Below are positions 46,742 to 60,946 of a stretch of DNA of 64,000 nt, one piece after another. The notes below the pieces were generated by a model. It searched no databases. It saw only the letters and a list, made by a program, of their open reading frames with translations, and was not told where the DNA came from. Made by a program: the position numbers and the translations under genes. The DNA lies in assembly GCA_021324435.1 (NCBI GenBank), contig JAJPIZ010000028.1, positions 62,001-126,000 of the forward strand. The letters are read 5' to 3'. Origin of the DNA: Anaerolineae bacterium. GTDB lineage: Bacteria; Chloroflexota; Anaerolineae; Anaerolineales; Villigracilaceae. Position 1 is the stretch's first letter. Each line of letters begins with the position of its first letter.

Positions 46742-46881
46742 GTGTTCGCCAGTTCACTTTCTCACGACAATCCCAGCTCTGCATCTATCGTGTTCGCGAT
46801 TATAAACCTAAACTCATGTTGCTCTTATTGACATCGCCCTGCGCCTATGATAAACTCCCGCCACAATTTGATATTGCTATA

Positions 46882-47052
46882 CTCATCCAGAGAGGCTGAG
46901 GGACCGACCCGGTGAAGCCTCGGCAACCGAATTTAGTTCGATAGTTGGTTAGTTTGATAGTTGCGTAGTAAACAACTACGAAACCAGATAACTACAAAAC
47001 TACACAACTAAGACAGGTGCCAATTTCGGCAGACGAAAGTCTGAGAGATGAG
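46882..47052 (+). ncRNA. SAM-I (S-box) riboswitch
   Basis: The conserved core is present: AGAGAGGCTGAGGGACCGAC, CCGGTGAAGCCTCGGCAACC, and AGGTGCCAATTTC, closed by the P1 helix CTCATC (46882-46887) with GATGAG (47047-47052). S-box RNAs switch off methionine and SAM genes when SAM is high. The P3 arm (about 46934-47013) is expanded to some 80 nt by a repeat-like hairpin built of TAGTT/AACTA units. Downstream genes are a YdeI-like gene, a SnoaL-like gene and metH. Confidence 0.93.
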
Positions 47053-47070
47053 AGATGACCGTGTTGGATG

Positions 47071-48075: not shown

Positions 48076-51000
48076 ATGACCAATCGCAACTACACCAACC
48101 GCCGCTACCTCGACGCCCTCGAAACGAAAGTCCTTGTCTTCGACGGCGCGATGGGCACCAGCCTGCAAAACCAACATCTCGCTGCTGAACACTTCGGCGG
48201 CGATCAATACAACGGATGCAACGACTACCTCGTCATCTCGTATCCCGAAGCCGTGGAAAAAGTCCATCGCTCGTTCCTCGAGGTCGGTGTGGACGTGATC
48301 GAGACGAACACCTTCCGCTCGAATCGAATCACGATGAAGGAATATGGCCTGCAAGACCGCGTGATCGAGATCAACGAGACCGCCGCGCGCCTCGCTCGTC
48401 GCTTGGCTGATGAATACTCGACCGTGGACAATAGACCGTTGACGGTAAACGGTCCACCGTCCACCGTCCACCGTCAACAGCGCTTCGTCGCTGGTTCCAT
48501 CGGCCCTTCAGGCAAACTTCCCTCCGCGAATGACCCCGAACTTTCAAACGTCAGCTTCGATGAACTCGCCGATGTTTTTCGCGAGCAGGCTGTCGGTCTG
48601 ATTCGCGGCGGCGTGGACGTTTTGCTCATCGAAACCTCGCAAGACATCCTCGAAGTCAAAGCCGCCATCACCGGCATTCACAAGGCTTTCGACGAGACTC
48701 AAATCTATCTGCCGATCCAGGCCCAGGTCACGCTCGATACGACGGGACGCATGTTGCTCGGCACCGACGTCAACGCCGCGCTCGCCATCCTCGAGGGCAT
48801 GGGCATTGACGTCATCGGCCTCAACTGCTCCACCGGACCCGAACACATGCGCGAGCCAATCCGCATCCTCGGCGAAAATTCCACGCTTCCGGTTTCGTGC
48901 ATCCCCAACGCGGGGCTTCCGTTGAACGTGGATGGGCAGGCCGTGTATCCGCTTGAACCCGAACCGTTCGCGAATGATCTGTATGAATTCGTAACCAAAC
49001 ATAACATCTCGATTGTCGGCGGATGCTGTGGGACGACGCCCGAACATCTAAAGTTATTGATCGAAAAATTAGGCACGCATCCACATCCCGCGCGCCCGCT
49101 TCACGCGGACCCGAAACTGGCCTCCGCCATGTCAGCCATTGCCATGCGACAGGATCCTCCGCCAACCCTGCTCGGCGAACGCTGCAACGCGCAAGGCTCG
49201 CGCAGGTTCAAGAAGATGCTGCTCGAAGAAGATTACGACGGCATTCTGGAGTTGGCGCGCGAACAAGTGGACGGCGGCGCGCACGCCCTCGACATCTCCT
49301 GCGCGGTGACTGAACGTCCCGACGAAGCCGAACTCATGCGCAAGGTCGTCAAGAAACTCGAAATGGGCGTGGACGTTCCGCTCGTGATTGACACCACCGA
49401 ACTCGACGTGCTGGAGGTCGCCCTCAAGACCGCGCCCGGACGCTGTCTCATCAACTCCACGCATCTCGAAGCGGGACGCACCAAAGCCGACAAGGTTTTC
49501 AAACTCGCCAAAGAACATAACGCCGCTGTCATCGTCCTGACCATTGACGAAAACGGCATGGCCAAGACGCGTGAGAAAAAACTGGAAGTCGCCAAACGAA
49601 TCTACGACATTGCCGTCAATGAACACGGACTCAAGCCCGAGGATTTGGTCTTCGACGCGCTGACTTTCACGCTGGCAACGGGCGACCCCGAATTCGCCAA
49701 CTCCGCCATCGAAACCATCGAAGGCATTCGCCTGATCAAACAGAATTTGCCGGGCGTGATGGCCTCGCTTGGCGTCAGCAATTTGTCATTCGGACTTGCG
49801 CCGCAGGCCCGCCCGGTCTTGAACTCGGTCATGCTGTATCACTGCATGCAAGCCGGGCTTGACATGGCCATCGTCAACGCCGCCCACGTCAAGCCTTATG
49901 CCGAGATTGATGAAAAGGAACGCGAGCTGGCCGAAGACTTGATCTTCAACCGCCGTCCCGACGCGTTGCAGAGATACATCGAATACTTCGAGAAGGTTAC
50001 TCCAACATCCGAATCATCCGCTGCCGATCCGACGGAAGGCATGACCCCCGAACAGCGCCTGCACTGGAAGATCGTGCATCGGAAGAAAGAGGGAGTGGAG
50101 GCGGATATTGATGAGATCATCACTCGCTCCCTCACCCCTAACCCCTCTCTCGAAGGGAGAGGGGGACTCCCTTCCCCCTTCGGGGGAAGGGTCGGGGATG
50201 AGGGCGGACTCCCTCTCCCACTGGGAGAGGGCAGGGGTGAGGGAATACCTCGCGAATACAACCCGCGCCTCCCCGACGAACTCAAAAAACGCATCCGTGA
50301 ACTCCGCAAAAACGTCACCGACGCGGAAAAACTCTTGTGGAGAATCCTTCGCAATCGTGGATTTCACGACGCCAAGTTCCGCAGACAACATCCGAAAGAA
50401 GGTTTTATCCTAGACTTCTACTGCCATGAAGCAAAGCTTTGTGTTGAACTGGATGGAAGTCAACACAAGGAGGACGAGCAAGTCAAATATGATGAAGAAC
50501 GCACAAAGATTTTGTTTGAAAGAAGAGGAATCAAAGTTATTCGATTCTGGAATAGCGATGTTCTAAACAAAACCGAAGAAGTATTAAATGTCCTTTGGGA
50601 TTTATTAGACGAGAGGTTGCCCTCGAACTCCCTCACCCCTAGCCCCTCTCCCGTTGGAGAGGGGAACTCGCTCCCTTCTCCCTTCGGGAGAAGGGCTGGG
50701 GATGAGGGCAACTTCCTTCCCCTTTCGGGAGAAGGGTCGGAGATGAGGGAAGACCCCCTCTCCCCTCGGGAGAGGGCTGGGGTGAGGGCTAGCCAGCACG
50801 AAACCGCCGTCCACACCCTCAACACCGTCCTCCTCCCCGCCATGAAGGAAGTCGGCGACAAATTTGGCGCGGGCGAACTCATCCTGCCCTTCGTGCTGCA
50901 ATCCGCTGAAGTGATGAAAAAAGCCGTCGCGCATCTCGAAAATTATCTTGAGAAGAAAGAAGGCACGAGCAAGGGGCTGGTCGTGCTGGCCACGGTTTAC

Positions 51001-52278
51001 GGCGACGTGCATGACATCGGGAAGAATCTCGTCAAAACGATTCTCTCCAACAACGGCTATGATGTGATTGACCTCGGCAAGCAGGTACCTGCCGAAACCA
51101 TTATTTCCAAAGCCGTTGAAGTCAACGCCACCGCGATTGGACTTTCGGCGTTGCTTGTATCAACATCAAAACAAATGCCGCTCATCGTCAACGAACTTCA
51201 CCGCCGCAATTTGAAATTCCCGGTGCTGGTGGGCGGCGCGGCCATTAATCGCCGCTTCGGGCGTCGCATCCTGTTCGCTGAAGATGGCAACGCTCACGAA
51301 CCCGGCGTCTTCTACTGTAAGGACGCATTTGAGGGTTTGGAGACGATGGATCAACTCATCGTCCCCGAGAAACGCGAAGAGTTGCTGGCGCAAATCCGCC
51401 GCGAAGCGGACCTCGAAATGGGTCGCGCTTCACAGGTGCCTGAGCATCGTAAAACAGCGACCCGCTCACAGGTCCAGCCTGAGCCGATCAATCATCCCCT
51501 CAAATGGGGTGCGCGCGTGGTCAAGGACATGCCGCTCGAGATCGTGTTGAAGCATCTCAGCCTCAATGAGTTATATCGTTTGTCGTGGGGAGCGAAGAAC
51601 GCCCACGGCGCGGAATGGGACAAATTGAAAAAGGAATTCGATGCGCGTCTGCAAAAGATGACCAGGGACGCATTGCGATTCAAATGGCTTAAACCGCAGG
51701 GCGTGTATGGACTCTTCCCATGCCAATCGGACGGCGATGAATTGATTATCTATGATCCTGAAACAATCAACTCTGCCTCGCCGGATGAACTGACGCGCTT
51801 CTCGTTCCCGCGCCAACCCTACGACGATCATCTGGCGCTGTCTGATTATTTTGCTTCAGTGAATTCAGGAAAAATTGATGTCGTTGCATTCCAAGTCGTG
51901 ACTGTCGGACAGGAAGCCACAGAAAAATTTGACGCGCTTCAGGCTAAGGGCGATTACTCCGAGGCGTACTTCACGCACGGGCTGGCCGTCCAGACCGCGG
52001 AGGCGACGGCGGCCTATTTGCACAATCACATCCGCCGCGAGCTGGGCATTGCGGAGGATCAGGGCAAACGCTATTCGTGGGGCTATCCCGCCATCCCCGA
52101 GCTCGAGGACCACAAGAAGGTCTTTGAGTTATTGCCCGCCGAAAAAGAACTCGGCATGACTCTCTCCGCCGCATACCAATTGATTCCCGAACAATCCACC
52201 GCCGCGATCATCGTCCACCACAAGGACGCCAAGTATTACAGCGTGGGCGAAAGCCGCGTGGAGCAGTTGATGAAGTGA
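48076..52278 (+). CDS. metH: Cobalamin-dependent methionine synthase with an inserted nuclease domain
   Basis: A 1400-residue MetH, about 200 longer than usual. Homocysteine domain: zinc cysteines C251 (GLNCSTGPEHM) and C317-C318 (GGCCGTTPEH). Pterin domain: ALDISCAVTERPDE and VPLVIDTTELDVLE region. B12 domain: cap and GDVHDIGKNLV, with H979 as the cobalt ligand. C-terminal activation domain: VQTAEATAAYLH, YSWGYPAIPELEDHK. Two insertions stand out: residues 116-135, encoded by a dispersed repeat, and residues 686-905, a DUF559 nuclease domain with GC-rich repeats on both sides in the cap region. Removing both gives about 1160 residues, the normal size. The frame is intact throughout. It is the third gene after the S-box. 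Confidence 0.93.
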   Translation: MTNRNYTNRRYLDALETKVLVFDGAMGTSLQNQHLAAEHFGGDQYNGCNDYLVISYPEAVEKVHRSFLEVGVDVIETNTFRSNRITMKEYGLQDRVIEINETAARLARRLADEYSTVDNRPLTVNGPPSTVHRQQRFVAGSIGPSGKLPSANDPELSNVSFDELADVFREQAVGLIRGGVDVLLIETSQDILEVKAAITGIHKAFDETQIYLPIQAQVTLDTTGRMLLGTDVNAALAILEGMGIDVIGLNCSTGPEHMREPIRILGENSTLPVSCIPNAGLPLNVDGQAVYPLEPEPFANDLYEFVTKHNISIVGGCCGTTPEHLKLLIEKLGTHPHPARPLHADPKLASAMSAIAMRQDPPPTLLGERCNAQGSRRFKKMLLEEDYDGILELAREQVDGGAHALDISCAVTERPDEAELMRKVVKKLEMGVDVPLVIDTTELDVLEVALKTAPGRCLINSTHLEAGRTKADKVFKLAKEHNAAVIVLTIDENGMAKTREKKLEVAKRIYDIAVNEHGLKPEDLVFDALTFTLATGDPEFANSAIETIEGIRLIKQNLPGVMASLGVSNLSFGLAPQARPVLNSVMLYHCMQAGLDMAIVNAAHVKPYAEIDEKERELAEDLIFNRRPDALQRYIEYFEKVTPTSESSAADPTEGMTPEQRLHWKIVHRKKEGVEADIDEIITRSLTPNPSLEGRGGLPSPFGGRVGDEGGLPLPLGEGRGEGIPREYNPRLPDELKKRIRELRKNVTDAEKLLWRILRNRGFHDAKFRRQHPKEGFILDFYCHEAKLCVELDGSQHKEDEQVKYDEERTKILFERRGIKVIRFWNSDVLNKTEEVLNVLWDLLDERLPSNSLTPSPSPVGEGNSLPSPFGRRAGDEGNFLPLSGEGSEMREDPLSPRERAGVRASQHETAVHTLNTVLLPAMKEVGDKFGAGELILPFVLQSAEVMKKAVAHLENYLEKKEGTSKGLVVLATVYGDVHDIGKNLVKTILSNNGYDVIDLGKQVPAETIISKAVEVNATAIGLSALLVSTSKQMPLIVNELHRRNLKFPVLVGGAAINRRFGRRILFAEDGNAHEPGVFYCKDAFEGLETMDQLIVPEKREELLAQIRREADLEMGRASQVPEHRKTATRSQVQPEPINHPLKWGARVVKDMPLEIVLKHLSLNELYRLSWGAKNAHGAEWDKLKKEFDARLQKMTRDALRFKWLKPQGVYGLFPCQSDGDELIIYDPETINSASPDELTRFSFPRQPYDDHLALSDYFASVNSGKIDVVAFQVVTVGQEATEKFDALQAKGDYSEAYFTHGLAVQTAEATAAYLHNHIRRELGIAEDQGKRYSWGYPAIPELEDHKKVFELLPAEKELGMTLSAAYQLIPEQSTAAIIVHHKDAKYYSVGESRVEQLMK
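48421..48480. repeat. In-frame GACCGTGGAC repeat inside metH
   Basis: The 60-nt stretch begins ACCGTGGACAATAGACCG, identical for 18 nt to the copy in pheT, and continues with CCACCGTCCACCGTCCACCG tandem units. It encodes TVDNRPLTVNGPPSTVHRQQ (residues 116-135), in a surface loop just before FVAGSIGPSG. Confidence 0.85.
50131..50789. mobile_element. Repeat-flanked DUF559 nuclease cassette inserted in frame in metH
   Basis: Left block 50131-50243 and right block 50631-50789 both begin CTCACCCCTAxCCCCTCTC and end in GGGGTGAGGG, so each is palindromic and together they bound the central piece with inverted ends. The centre (50251-50623) encodes a complete DUF559 (Vsr-like PD-(D/E)xK fold) domain: NVTDAEKLLWRILRNRGFHD, FILDFYCHEAKLCVELDGSQH with D780, E791 and D793 in MetH numbering. 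Everything, including the repeats, reads through in the metH frame. The central gene would normally be a free-standing protein of about 120 residues. Confidence 0.8.
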
Positions 52279-60603: not shown

Positions 60604-60670
60604 CCCGCACTTGACAGTCCCTTGTTTTTGCAGATAATAAAGGCCAACAGGCGAGCCTAATAAAGGCAAT

Positions 60671-60946
60671 GAAAGAGGAAAGTAGATCGGCGGATGCCGT
60701 CAGAGAGGCGCAAGAGCAAAGTTGGAACTTACGCCCGGCACAAACCAGTCGAAGTTCCCTCTTGAGCCGCTCGAGTGAAGCGTGCCATGGTCGCTTCAAG
60801 TGTCACGTGTGTAGTCCGAGCCGCAGTCCCAGCGTTAAGCGGGAGGCCGATAATTGTCGGCGCAAAGTGGATTCATAGAATCAACGTGGGTGGTACCGCG
60901 GGAAGTCTCCCTCCCGTCCCATTGTGTGGACGGGAGGTTTTGTTTT
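60671..60946 (+). ncRNA. T-box leader, phenylalanine specific
   Basis: The T-box sequence AACGTGGGTGGTACCGCGG is at 60883-60901 and the terminator stem CCTCCCGTCC/GGACGGGAGG with T run at 60910-60946. Stem I base pairs AAGAGG (60673-60678) with CCTCTT (60758-60763); the enclosed internal loop has AGTA on one side and GAAG-TTC on the other, placing the specifier TTC (Phe) at 60755-60757. Uncharged tRNA-Phe would stabilise the antiterminator and switch on pheS-pheT. This fits the gene downstream. Confidence 0.93.

Follow-up and report, generated by a model that had tools for sequence, protein, structure and literature searches.

Introduction

How can a gene for methionine synthase hold a complete nuclease domain and still read through, and how did that domain come to be there? 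The metH gene of an Anaerolineae bacterium raises this question. It lies in the stretch of DNA analysed here (hereafter the window), which is 64,000 nucleotides long and corresponds to bases 62001–126000 of contig 19 in a 3.11 Mb genome. An earlier note on the window had described a complete DUF559 nuclease lying in frame in the cap domain of MetH, between palindromic GC-rich flanks and with the host frame open, and had raised the idea of a mobile unit adapted to insert without breaking genes.

A nuclease domain within the MetH cap domain

The ORF read of the window gives metH as a single open frame on the + strand (48076–52278, 1400 aa). Its Pfam domains are S-methyl_trans (residues 20–329), Pterin_bind (367–601), DUF559 (736–840, E 6.6e-32), B12-binding_2 (909–955), B12-binding (968–1056) and Met_synt_B12 (1191–1398). 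The B12-binding_2 match covers only profile positions 28–74 of 74, and the cap domain is therefore split. The protein scores 1079.5 bits against the metH equivalog model TIGR02082 (cut-off 1010.85), and is 1178 aa long when the insert is subtracted. A second intact metH, which the earlier note had considered, was not found in a search of the genome for another full MetH.

The limits of the insert, drawn by eye against the empty alleles of relatives, correspond to residues 685–906 of the window MetH. The insert consists of three GC-rich hairpin repeats, the DUF559 nuclease and four further GC-rich hairpin repeats (Table 1), and a hairpin followed by a mirror purine third arm, as in the BoxC/triplex motif, is present in both flanks. 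The in-frame nuclease, the palindromic flanks and the open host frame of the earlier note are thus all upheld. One repeat consensus has 34 copies across the window genome, and its reversed control has 0. Within the window, repeat matches (at most 2 mismatches) are confined to the insert, with the single exception of a match at 50816, which lies in metH immediately 3′ of it; 8 and 6 matches were found, where 1.26 and 1.18 were expected by chance. The sequence CTWGG, which brings to mind a Vsr site, was noticed between the repeat arms.

Table 1. Features of metH and its insert, in window coordinates.
Feature	Position	Strand	Basis
metH 5′ part: homocysteine- and folate-binding domains, first portion of B12 cap domain	48076..50127	+	ORF, Pfam, empty alleles
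Complete insert, reading in frame with metH (666 nt, 222 codons)	50128..50793	+	comparison by eye with relatives' empty alleles
Left array repeat 1: hairpin, outer arm CCCTCACCCC	50129..50164	.	
Left array repeat 2: hairpin and mirror third arm, triplex type	50169..50204	.	
Left array repeat 3: hairpin and third arm GGGGTGAGGG	50211..50243	.	
DUF559 (PF04480) Vsr-like PD-(D/E)XK nuclease domain	50281..50595	+	Pfam, alignment, AlphaFold/Foldseek
Right array repeat 1: hairpin, outer arm CCCTCACCCC	50630..50664	.	
Right array repeat 2: hairpin and mirror third arm	50673..50708	.	
Right array repeat 3: imperfect hairpin and third arm	50715..50749	.	
Right array repeat 4: hairpin and third arm GGGGTGAGGG	50756..50788	.	
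metH 3′ part: remaining cap domain, B12-binding domain, activation domain	50794..52278	+	ORF, Pfam, empty alleles

The window DUF559 has no ATG in the 45 codons upstream and no stop in the 40 codons downstream, and at the level of sequence the element therefore relies on the host's start. An AlphaFold model of the MetH region with the insert (468 aa, 4 rows) reached a pLDDT of 45.5 and was unusable. Elsewhere in the window, Rfam identifies two elements: a SAM riboswitch (46880–47054), lying 5′ of the metH region, and a T-box leader (60660–60924). The same genome holds a short DUF559 remnant (L004, contig 19, 60419–60604), decayed in appearance.

Family and fold of the nuclease

The window domain matches the PF04480 profile with 110.1 bits (cut-off 20.6). 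Residues E25, D54, E65 and H71, among others, are invariant in a 56-row DUF559 alignment, and all are present in the window. The AlphaFold model of the domain has a pLDDT of 87, and its closest Foldseek matches are NGO0050, a gonococcal relative (3hrl, E 2.9e-8), and the catalytic domain of I-Bth0305I (3r3p, E 2.8e-4); the match to Vsr itself (1vsr) is weak (E 0.78). A profile search of solved structures again placed NGO0050 and I-Bth0305I first, along with five enterotoxin B-chain rows (E 0.06–0.1) that I take as chance. The Escherichia coli member, YcjD, has been assigned to the PD-(D/E)XK group, near Vsr (PMC1189080). The insert thus resembles the Vsr-like homing endonucleases such as I-Bth0305I in fold and by a distant sequence match; I-Bth0305I is labelled a mobile intron protein, whereas no intron was found in the MetH insert. 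A regular-expression search recovered DUF559 in 0 of 18 loci, and the profile was used instead. Among 50,697 phage records, 5 hold DUF559 matches.

Occupied and empty alleles of MetH

The earlier note proposed looking for empty metH alleles in relatives. The joined MetH flanks, used as a query, matched in 97 of 101 genomes, many of these matches being to corrinoid proteins alone. The set of MetH loci comprises 51 (the window and L042–L091). The nuclease is present in frame at the same site in 13 of these (the window, L072–L082 and L089) and absent in 36, one of which (L059) is counted nuclease-free from a one-piece flank match alone; the remaining two (L090, L091) are cut at the site. Another search added three occupied alleles (L124, L127, L128), for a total of 16. 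Several of the occupied contigs end within metH, but in each of the 16 the frame stays open through both junctions. Among the occupied genomes are a genus-mate of the window (G002) and a member of another family (G066), whereas three further genus-mates (G003–G005) have no nuclease there. No clean target duplication was seen at the borders of the MetH insert.

Four nuclease-free loops retain repeat-like peptides alone (L044, L053, L083, L086). Seven other alleles (L046, L047, L052, L084, L085, L087, L088) hold, by eye, other sequence repeats in the same loop, which therefore appears to be a place generally tolerant of insertion and looks like a general insertion hotspot.

The median pN/pS is 0.29 for the insert (105 pairs, maximum 0.50) and 0.26 for the C-terminal part of the host (91 pairs), values that are rough because pS is near saturation. 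By these sequence-based ratios the insert shows purifying selection. The window and G002 share 92% of residues in the host and 75% in the insert, and the window and L074 share 78% in both. Insert and host disagree in their trees: with 14 alleles, each data set rejects the tree of the other (insert data on the host tree, dlnL 123, p-AU 3e-7). L081 was left out of the host comparisons, and L089 out of the identity, pN/pS and tree-conflict comparisons. The conflict suggests that the insert moved laterally between hosts, on the evidence of these alignments; old alleles combined with loss could explain part of it. As in a homing endonuclease element, some relatives carry the insert at this one site and others do not, and there are signs of lateral spread.

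The 16 MetH inserts form a supported group together with the inserts of two restriction-type proteins (100/97), separate from the free-standing DUF559 genes found in the same family. Support for the MetH inserts as a clade on their own is not firm (51/90; 47% of bootstrap trees).

The repeats and the BoxC class of E. coli

The DUF559 gene of E. coli, ycjD, is located between sapF and fabI; a 2300-base query around it matched over at least 80% in 3362 of 5426 E. coli genomes. Strain KE47 holds 13 copies of GGGGAGAGGGTTAGGGTGAGGGG (at most 3 mismatches, 10 of them exact; reversed control 0). Two of these follow ycjD directly on its downstream side; upstream of the gene there is a hairpin of a different, AT-rich type. 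The core of GGGGAGAGGGTTAGGGTGAGGGG appears 13 times in PMC4666352, where the E. coli sequence of the motif, first described as BoxC and later as PIT, is reported to fold in vitro into an intrastrand triplex. The repeats of the MetH insert share its order of Y-arm, loop, R-arm, loop and mirror R-arm (Holder et al. 2015, PMC4666352), and on these grounds belong to the BoxC/PIT/intrastrand triplex class of E. coli. They differ in location: the motif is 'always located intergenically' in E. coli MG1655 (PMC4666352), whereas the repeats described here lie in frame in MetH and other hosts.

The same paper describes BoxC loci as unusually variable, with an origin that 'remains unclear', and reports no transposase or integrase remnant near the motif; its main text contains no word starting with DUF or endonuclease (PMC4666352). 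At two E. coli BoxC sites, presence differs among strains (as judged on the 40 rows listed out of 5409 and 4621 records). The borders of both sites look replaced rather than cleanly inserted, and neither shows a clean target duplication. A clean empty ycjD site was not obtained in E. coli. In two strains without ycjD (O157:H7 strain 7636 and ST131 strain 5392; L227, L228), efflux genes adjoin the sapF side.

Repeats beside DUF559 across phyla

Other DUF559 genes with the same kind of flanks, a further suggestion of the earlier note, were sought by scanning one genome for each of 84,980 species. The best 80 of 566 confirmed loci were kept (L142–L221); embedded members are over-represented among them because they are the best matches of an embedded-type query, and their counts overlap with other sets because L142, L143, L144, L148 and L177 are apparently the same contigs as L073, L075, L128, L122 and L271. 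These best 80 of 566 come from Chloroflexota, Pseudomonadota, Thermodesulfobacteriota, Bacteroidota, Cyanobacteriota, Planctomycetota, Nitrospirota, Myxococcota, candidate phyla and others.

Perfect hairpin arms (at least 9, within 250 nt) are found in 61 of 79 upstream and 54 of 79 downstream windows of this best-80 set, compared to 12 of 353 control windows taken from the same DUF559 loci. For the triplex type, a mirror third arm was required and 4 of the 80 loci, with short flanks, were left out. It is present upstream in 47 of 76 loci, downstream in 37 and on either side in 57 (still among the best 80 of 566), that is in 84 of 152 flank windows versus 5 of 451 control windows, and is absent on both sides in 19 of the 76. 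Eleven DUF559 loci were fetched separately (E. coli, Azospirillum twice, Neisseria, Synechocystis, Deinococcus, Pseudanabaena, Picosynechococcus, Sinorhizobium, Sphingomonas, Photobacterium). Seven have a GC-rich perfect arm of at least 9 on at least one side, and the remaining four (L222, L223, L260, L261) show, by eye, shorter or imperfect repeat copies. On a Sphingomonas plasmid (L263), DUF559 and repeats lie between sufB and sufC.

At the genome level, in a class sample of 121, DUF559 is found in 24 of the 27 genomes with at least 5 copies of one repeat consensus versus 33 of the 94 others (Fisher 5e-7, not corrected for kinship); these 33 have fewer than 5 copies of that consensus, in a count that leaves out other spellings. 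Three repeat-rich genomes (at least 5 copies) have no DUF559 match (G195, G213, G233): the nuclease may have been lost, the genome may be incomplete, or there may be another driver.

The chief doubt about the proposed element is whether the repeats are driven by the nuclease or only accompanied by it. GC-rich repeats of many kinds might gather passively in tolerant loops by illegitimate recombination, with DUF559 a passenger beside them that has no part in their spread. I consider this unlikely. It would account for the other repeat types in the same MetH loop, the replacement-type borders at the E. coli sites and the three repeat-rich genomes without a DUF559 match, and would agree with the reported link of the triplex motif to local instability (PMC4666352). 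It fits poorly with the tight repeat-DUF559 association in many phyla (among the best 80 of 566 loci), the genome-level co-occurrence (with kinship uncorrected), the purifying selection on the nuclease, and the tree conflict within the MetH-type insert lineage.

Other host proteins

DUF559 also lies in frame in other proteins, with host domains recognised on both sides: MetG (L150, L160, L164), ValS (L152, L167), MmeI-like (L155, L162, L267) and Eco57I/MmeI-like (L156) proteins, type ISP enzymes (L173, L275), HrpA (L149), PriA (L220) and BioA (L170). One further MetH (L147) holds it at another place, between the B12 and activation domains. HrpA, PriA, BioA, MetG (L160) and ValS (L167) score above the cut-offs of their curated models; L152 is a partial contig with ValS as its best curated-model hit. 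In HsdM (L154, L159), a domain is recognised on the left and the stretch on the right is common to both loci. One side was assigned by eye or left unassigned in L122, L270, L123, L126, the DUF1156 proteins (L174, L268, L273) and the N6_N4 methylases (L177, L265). A Synechocystis plasmid (L225) holds a DUF559 gene between annotated pieces that look like an interrupted DUF1156 gene; this is the disruptive counterpart to L174. L145, L146 and L169 resemble C-terminal additions, and the open frame of L161 starts directly before the nuclease. Among the strong DUF559 matches of the class sample (the first 69 DUF559 rows, E up to 2.3e-27), 22 lie in frames of at least 400 aa, four of these being MetH and six intein-type loci.

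MetG and ValS are essential enzymes. The sole MetG found in three genomes and the sole ValS found in two (G190–G194, without completeness figures) carry the insert, the best other matches there being distant (E 4.6e-9 to 3.5e-6). Since these are essential and the only copies found, the insert-bearing enzymes, or a processed form, should work.

Among the best 80 of 566 loci, a stop follows within 40 codons of DUF559 in 1 of 25 embedded loci (frames of 350 aa or more) and in 47 of 51 free-standing ones, so that it is lacking in 24/25 and 4/51 respectively; an in-frame ATG lies within the 45 codons before DUF559 in 10/25 and 39/51. Separate translation is therefore possible in some embedded loci. 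On the DUF559 tree, the embedded rows are clustered (13 changes, compared to 27.8 for shuffles; 0/500 shuffles), and supported branches force at least 6 changes, indicating that embedding changed more than once. The tree has 34 rows labelled embedded, with L145, L146, L161 and L169 not clearly host-bracketed; L122 and L148 are identical, and the E. coli and plasmid loci were left out.

These observations bear on the earlier note's idea of a mobile unit adapted to insert without breaking genes. Mobility is suggested by the tree conflict. Adaptation is favoured by the lack of nearby stops and by the clustering of embedding, but is not borne out, because selection leaves in-frame survivors in needed genes. 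Besides, the note missed the described repeat class (PMC4666352), the recurrence in other hosts and phyla, and the unrelated repeats in the MetH loop.

A host might instead keep the domain for its own benefit, such as a role in defence or in DNA repair connected with the host enzymes. Purifying selection on the insert and the frequency of restriction-modification proteins among the hosts would agree with such a domesticated fusion, which I nevertheless find improbable: occurrence is patchy inside one genus and family, the host functions (MetH, MetG, ValS, PriA, BioA) are unrelated, repeats flank both sides, and the insert and host trees conflict.

DUF559 in inteins, and the question of splicing

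In the same class, DUF559 sits between Hint-type intein halves in six loci (L277–L281, L284). By eye, L277–L281 end in HN before cysteine and L284 lacks that end; the intein C-terminal model TIGR01443 scores in 3 of 4 scanned loci. Where a host is assigned it is a DNA methylase, by Pfam for L279 and L280 and on reading by eye for L278 and L281. All six inteins precede a CGSGTT motif, and repeat-type peptides lie near the intein start. Given its occurrence inside inteins and its I-Bth0305I-like fold, the DUF559 family probably serves in homing in one setting at least.

The MetH insert itself is not an intein, as the earlier note had stated: none of the 21 NCBIfam hits of the window protein is an intein model. 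A group I/II intron is ruled out too, as no Rfam family reaches its gathering score at the insert and the frame is open through the junctions. Unlike the MetH loop, intein sites are usually not variable. Splicing of an unrecognised kind, after transcription or translation, would leave mature MetH insert-free; the length of the insert, its place in a core domain and the true DUF559 inteins of the class speak for this, yet I regard it as very unlikely. The DUF559 inteins are largely detected by an intein model (3 of 4 scanned) where the window protein is not, no intron family is seen at the insert, the MetH loop is variable, and all 16 alleles are open over insert and junctions, which removal at the RNA level would not need.

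That metH is decaying or misassembled is barely credible: repeats are known to break assemblies and two loci (L090, L091) end at the site, but the same structure occurs in 16 genomes, this is the sole full MetH, and pN/pS is well below 1 in insert and host. An assembly error, which the earlier note had considered, is unlikely because 15 other genomes have the same arrangement, and a pseudogene, simple or otherwise, is ruled out by the open frames, the sole full MetH and the low pN/pS.

Proposed mechanism

I consider it probable that the insert is a mobile homing-type DUF559 nuclease element, bracketed by BoxC/triplex repeats and carried unspliced and in frame as an extra domain of MetH. The element would be co-translated with MetH from its place in the cap-domain loop, and MetH would be made whole and functional, the nuclease being tolerated as an additional domain; that MetH works with the insert is inferred from the 16 open frames, the sole full MetH and the only-copy MetG and ValS inserts. 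Between MetH alleles, the element would spread at the same site, most likely in the manner of homing endonucleases: the nuclease would cut a vacant allele, and repair would then copy the occupied one into it. The repeats may be the structures on which nuclease or repair acts. New host genes would be reached rarely, probably via repair-type capture at breaks, which is proposed because the two variable E. coli sites show replaced borders and no clean target duplication. In needed genes, the survivors would be in-frame captures in tolerant loops alone, and nuclease-free repeat copies may be by-products or relics of the element.

A broader reading can be offered tentatively, and falls somewhat short of an even chance: DUF559 and BoxC/triplex repeats would form one widespread class of mobile element, found between genes, inside inteins or unspliced in essential proteins, in which the nuclease spreads the BoxC repeats and MetH, MetG, ValS and PriA carry a live domain.

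Relation to known elements, and implications

Several known systems resemble the MetH insert in part. Inteins share an in-frame nuclease domain, a fixed site in relatives and signs of lateral spread; the insert, unlike these, has no intein model hit, lies in a loop and is repeat-flanked. In REP/RAYT systems, the RAYT gene lies between dispersed palindromes whose spread is attributed to its product, a Y1 (HUH) transposase. DUF559 loci have the same layout, with the difference that the gene between the repeats is a PD-(D/E)XK nuclease, not a Y1 transposase. Rickettsia palindromic elements (RPEs), ∼150 bp long and peptide-coding, are reviewed together with in-frame MITE fusions (PMC10969869), and likewise place short palindromic DNA in frame in unrelated protein genes. 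The MetH insert differs in its 666 nt and its conserved nuclease, and elements of its kind differ in their occurrence in many phyla, while the review's account of RPEs mentions no nuclease (PMC10969869).

In the open-access literature consulted (subscription papers and preprints were outside this scope), I found no report joining DUF559 to such repeats, or of an in-frame DUF559. Since the tested features of inteins, introns, RPEs and REP/RAYT fail and no such report was found there, I rate the arrangement as new, built from known parts; a stricter reader could place it among homing elements.

If this interpretation is true, it names a nuclease partner for an E. coli repeat class known since the 1990s, whose origin has been called unclear (PMC4666352), and the origin of the BoxC repeats becomes testable in E. 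coli strains carrying ycjD. It also offers another reading for Vsr-like DUF559 proteins taken as mismatch-repair enzymes, as proposed for Caulobacter VsrA (PMC12907096), and a caution that many DUF559 'fusion proteins' may be element insertions. Beside introns and inteins, there would then be a further way for a nuclease element to reside in essential genes, which is not to be removed at all.
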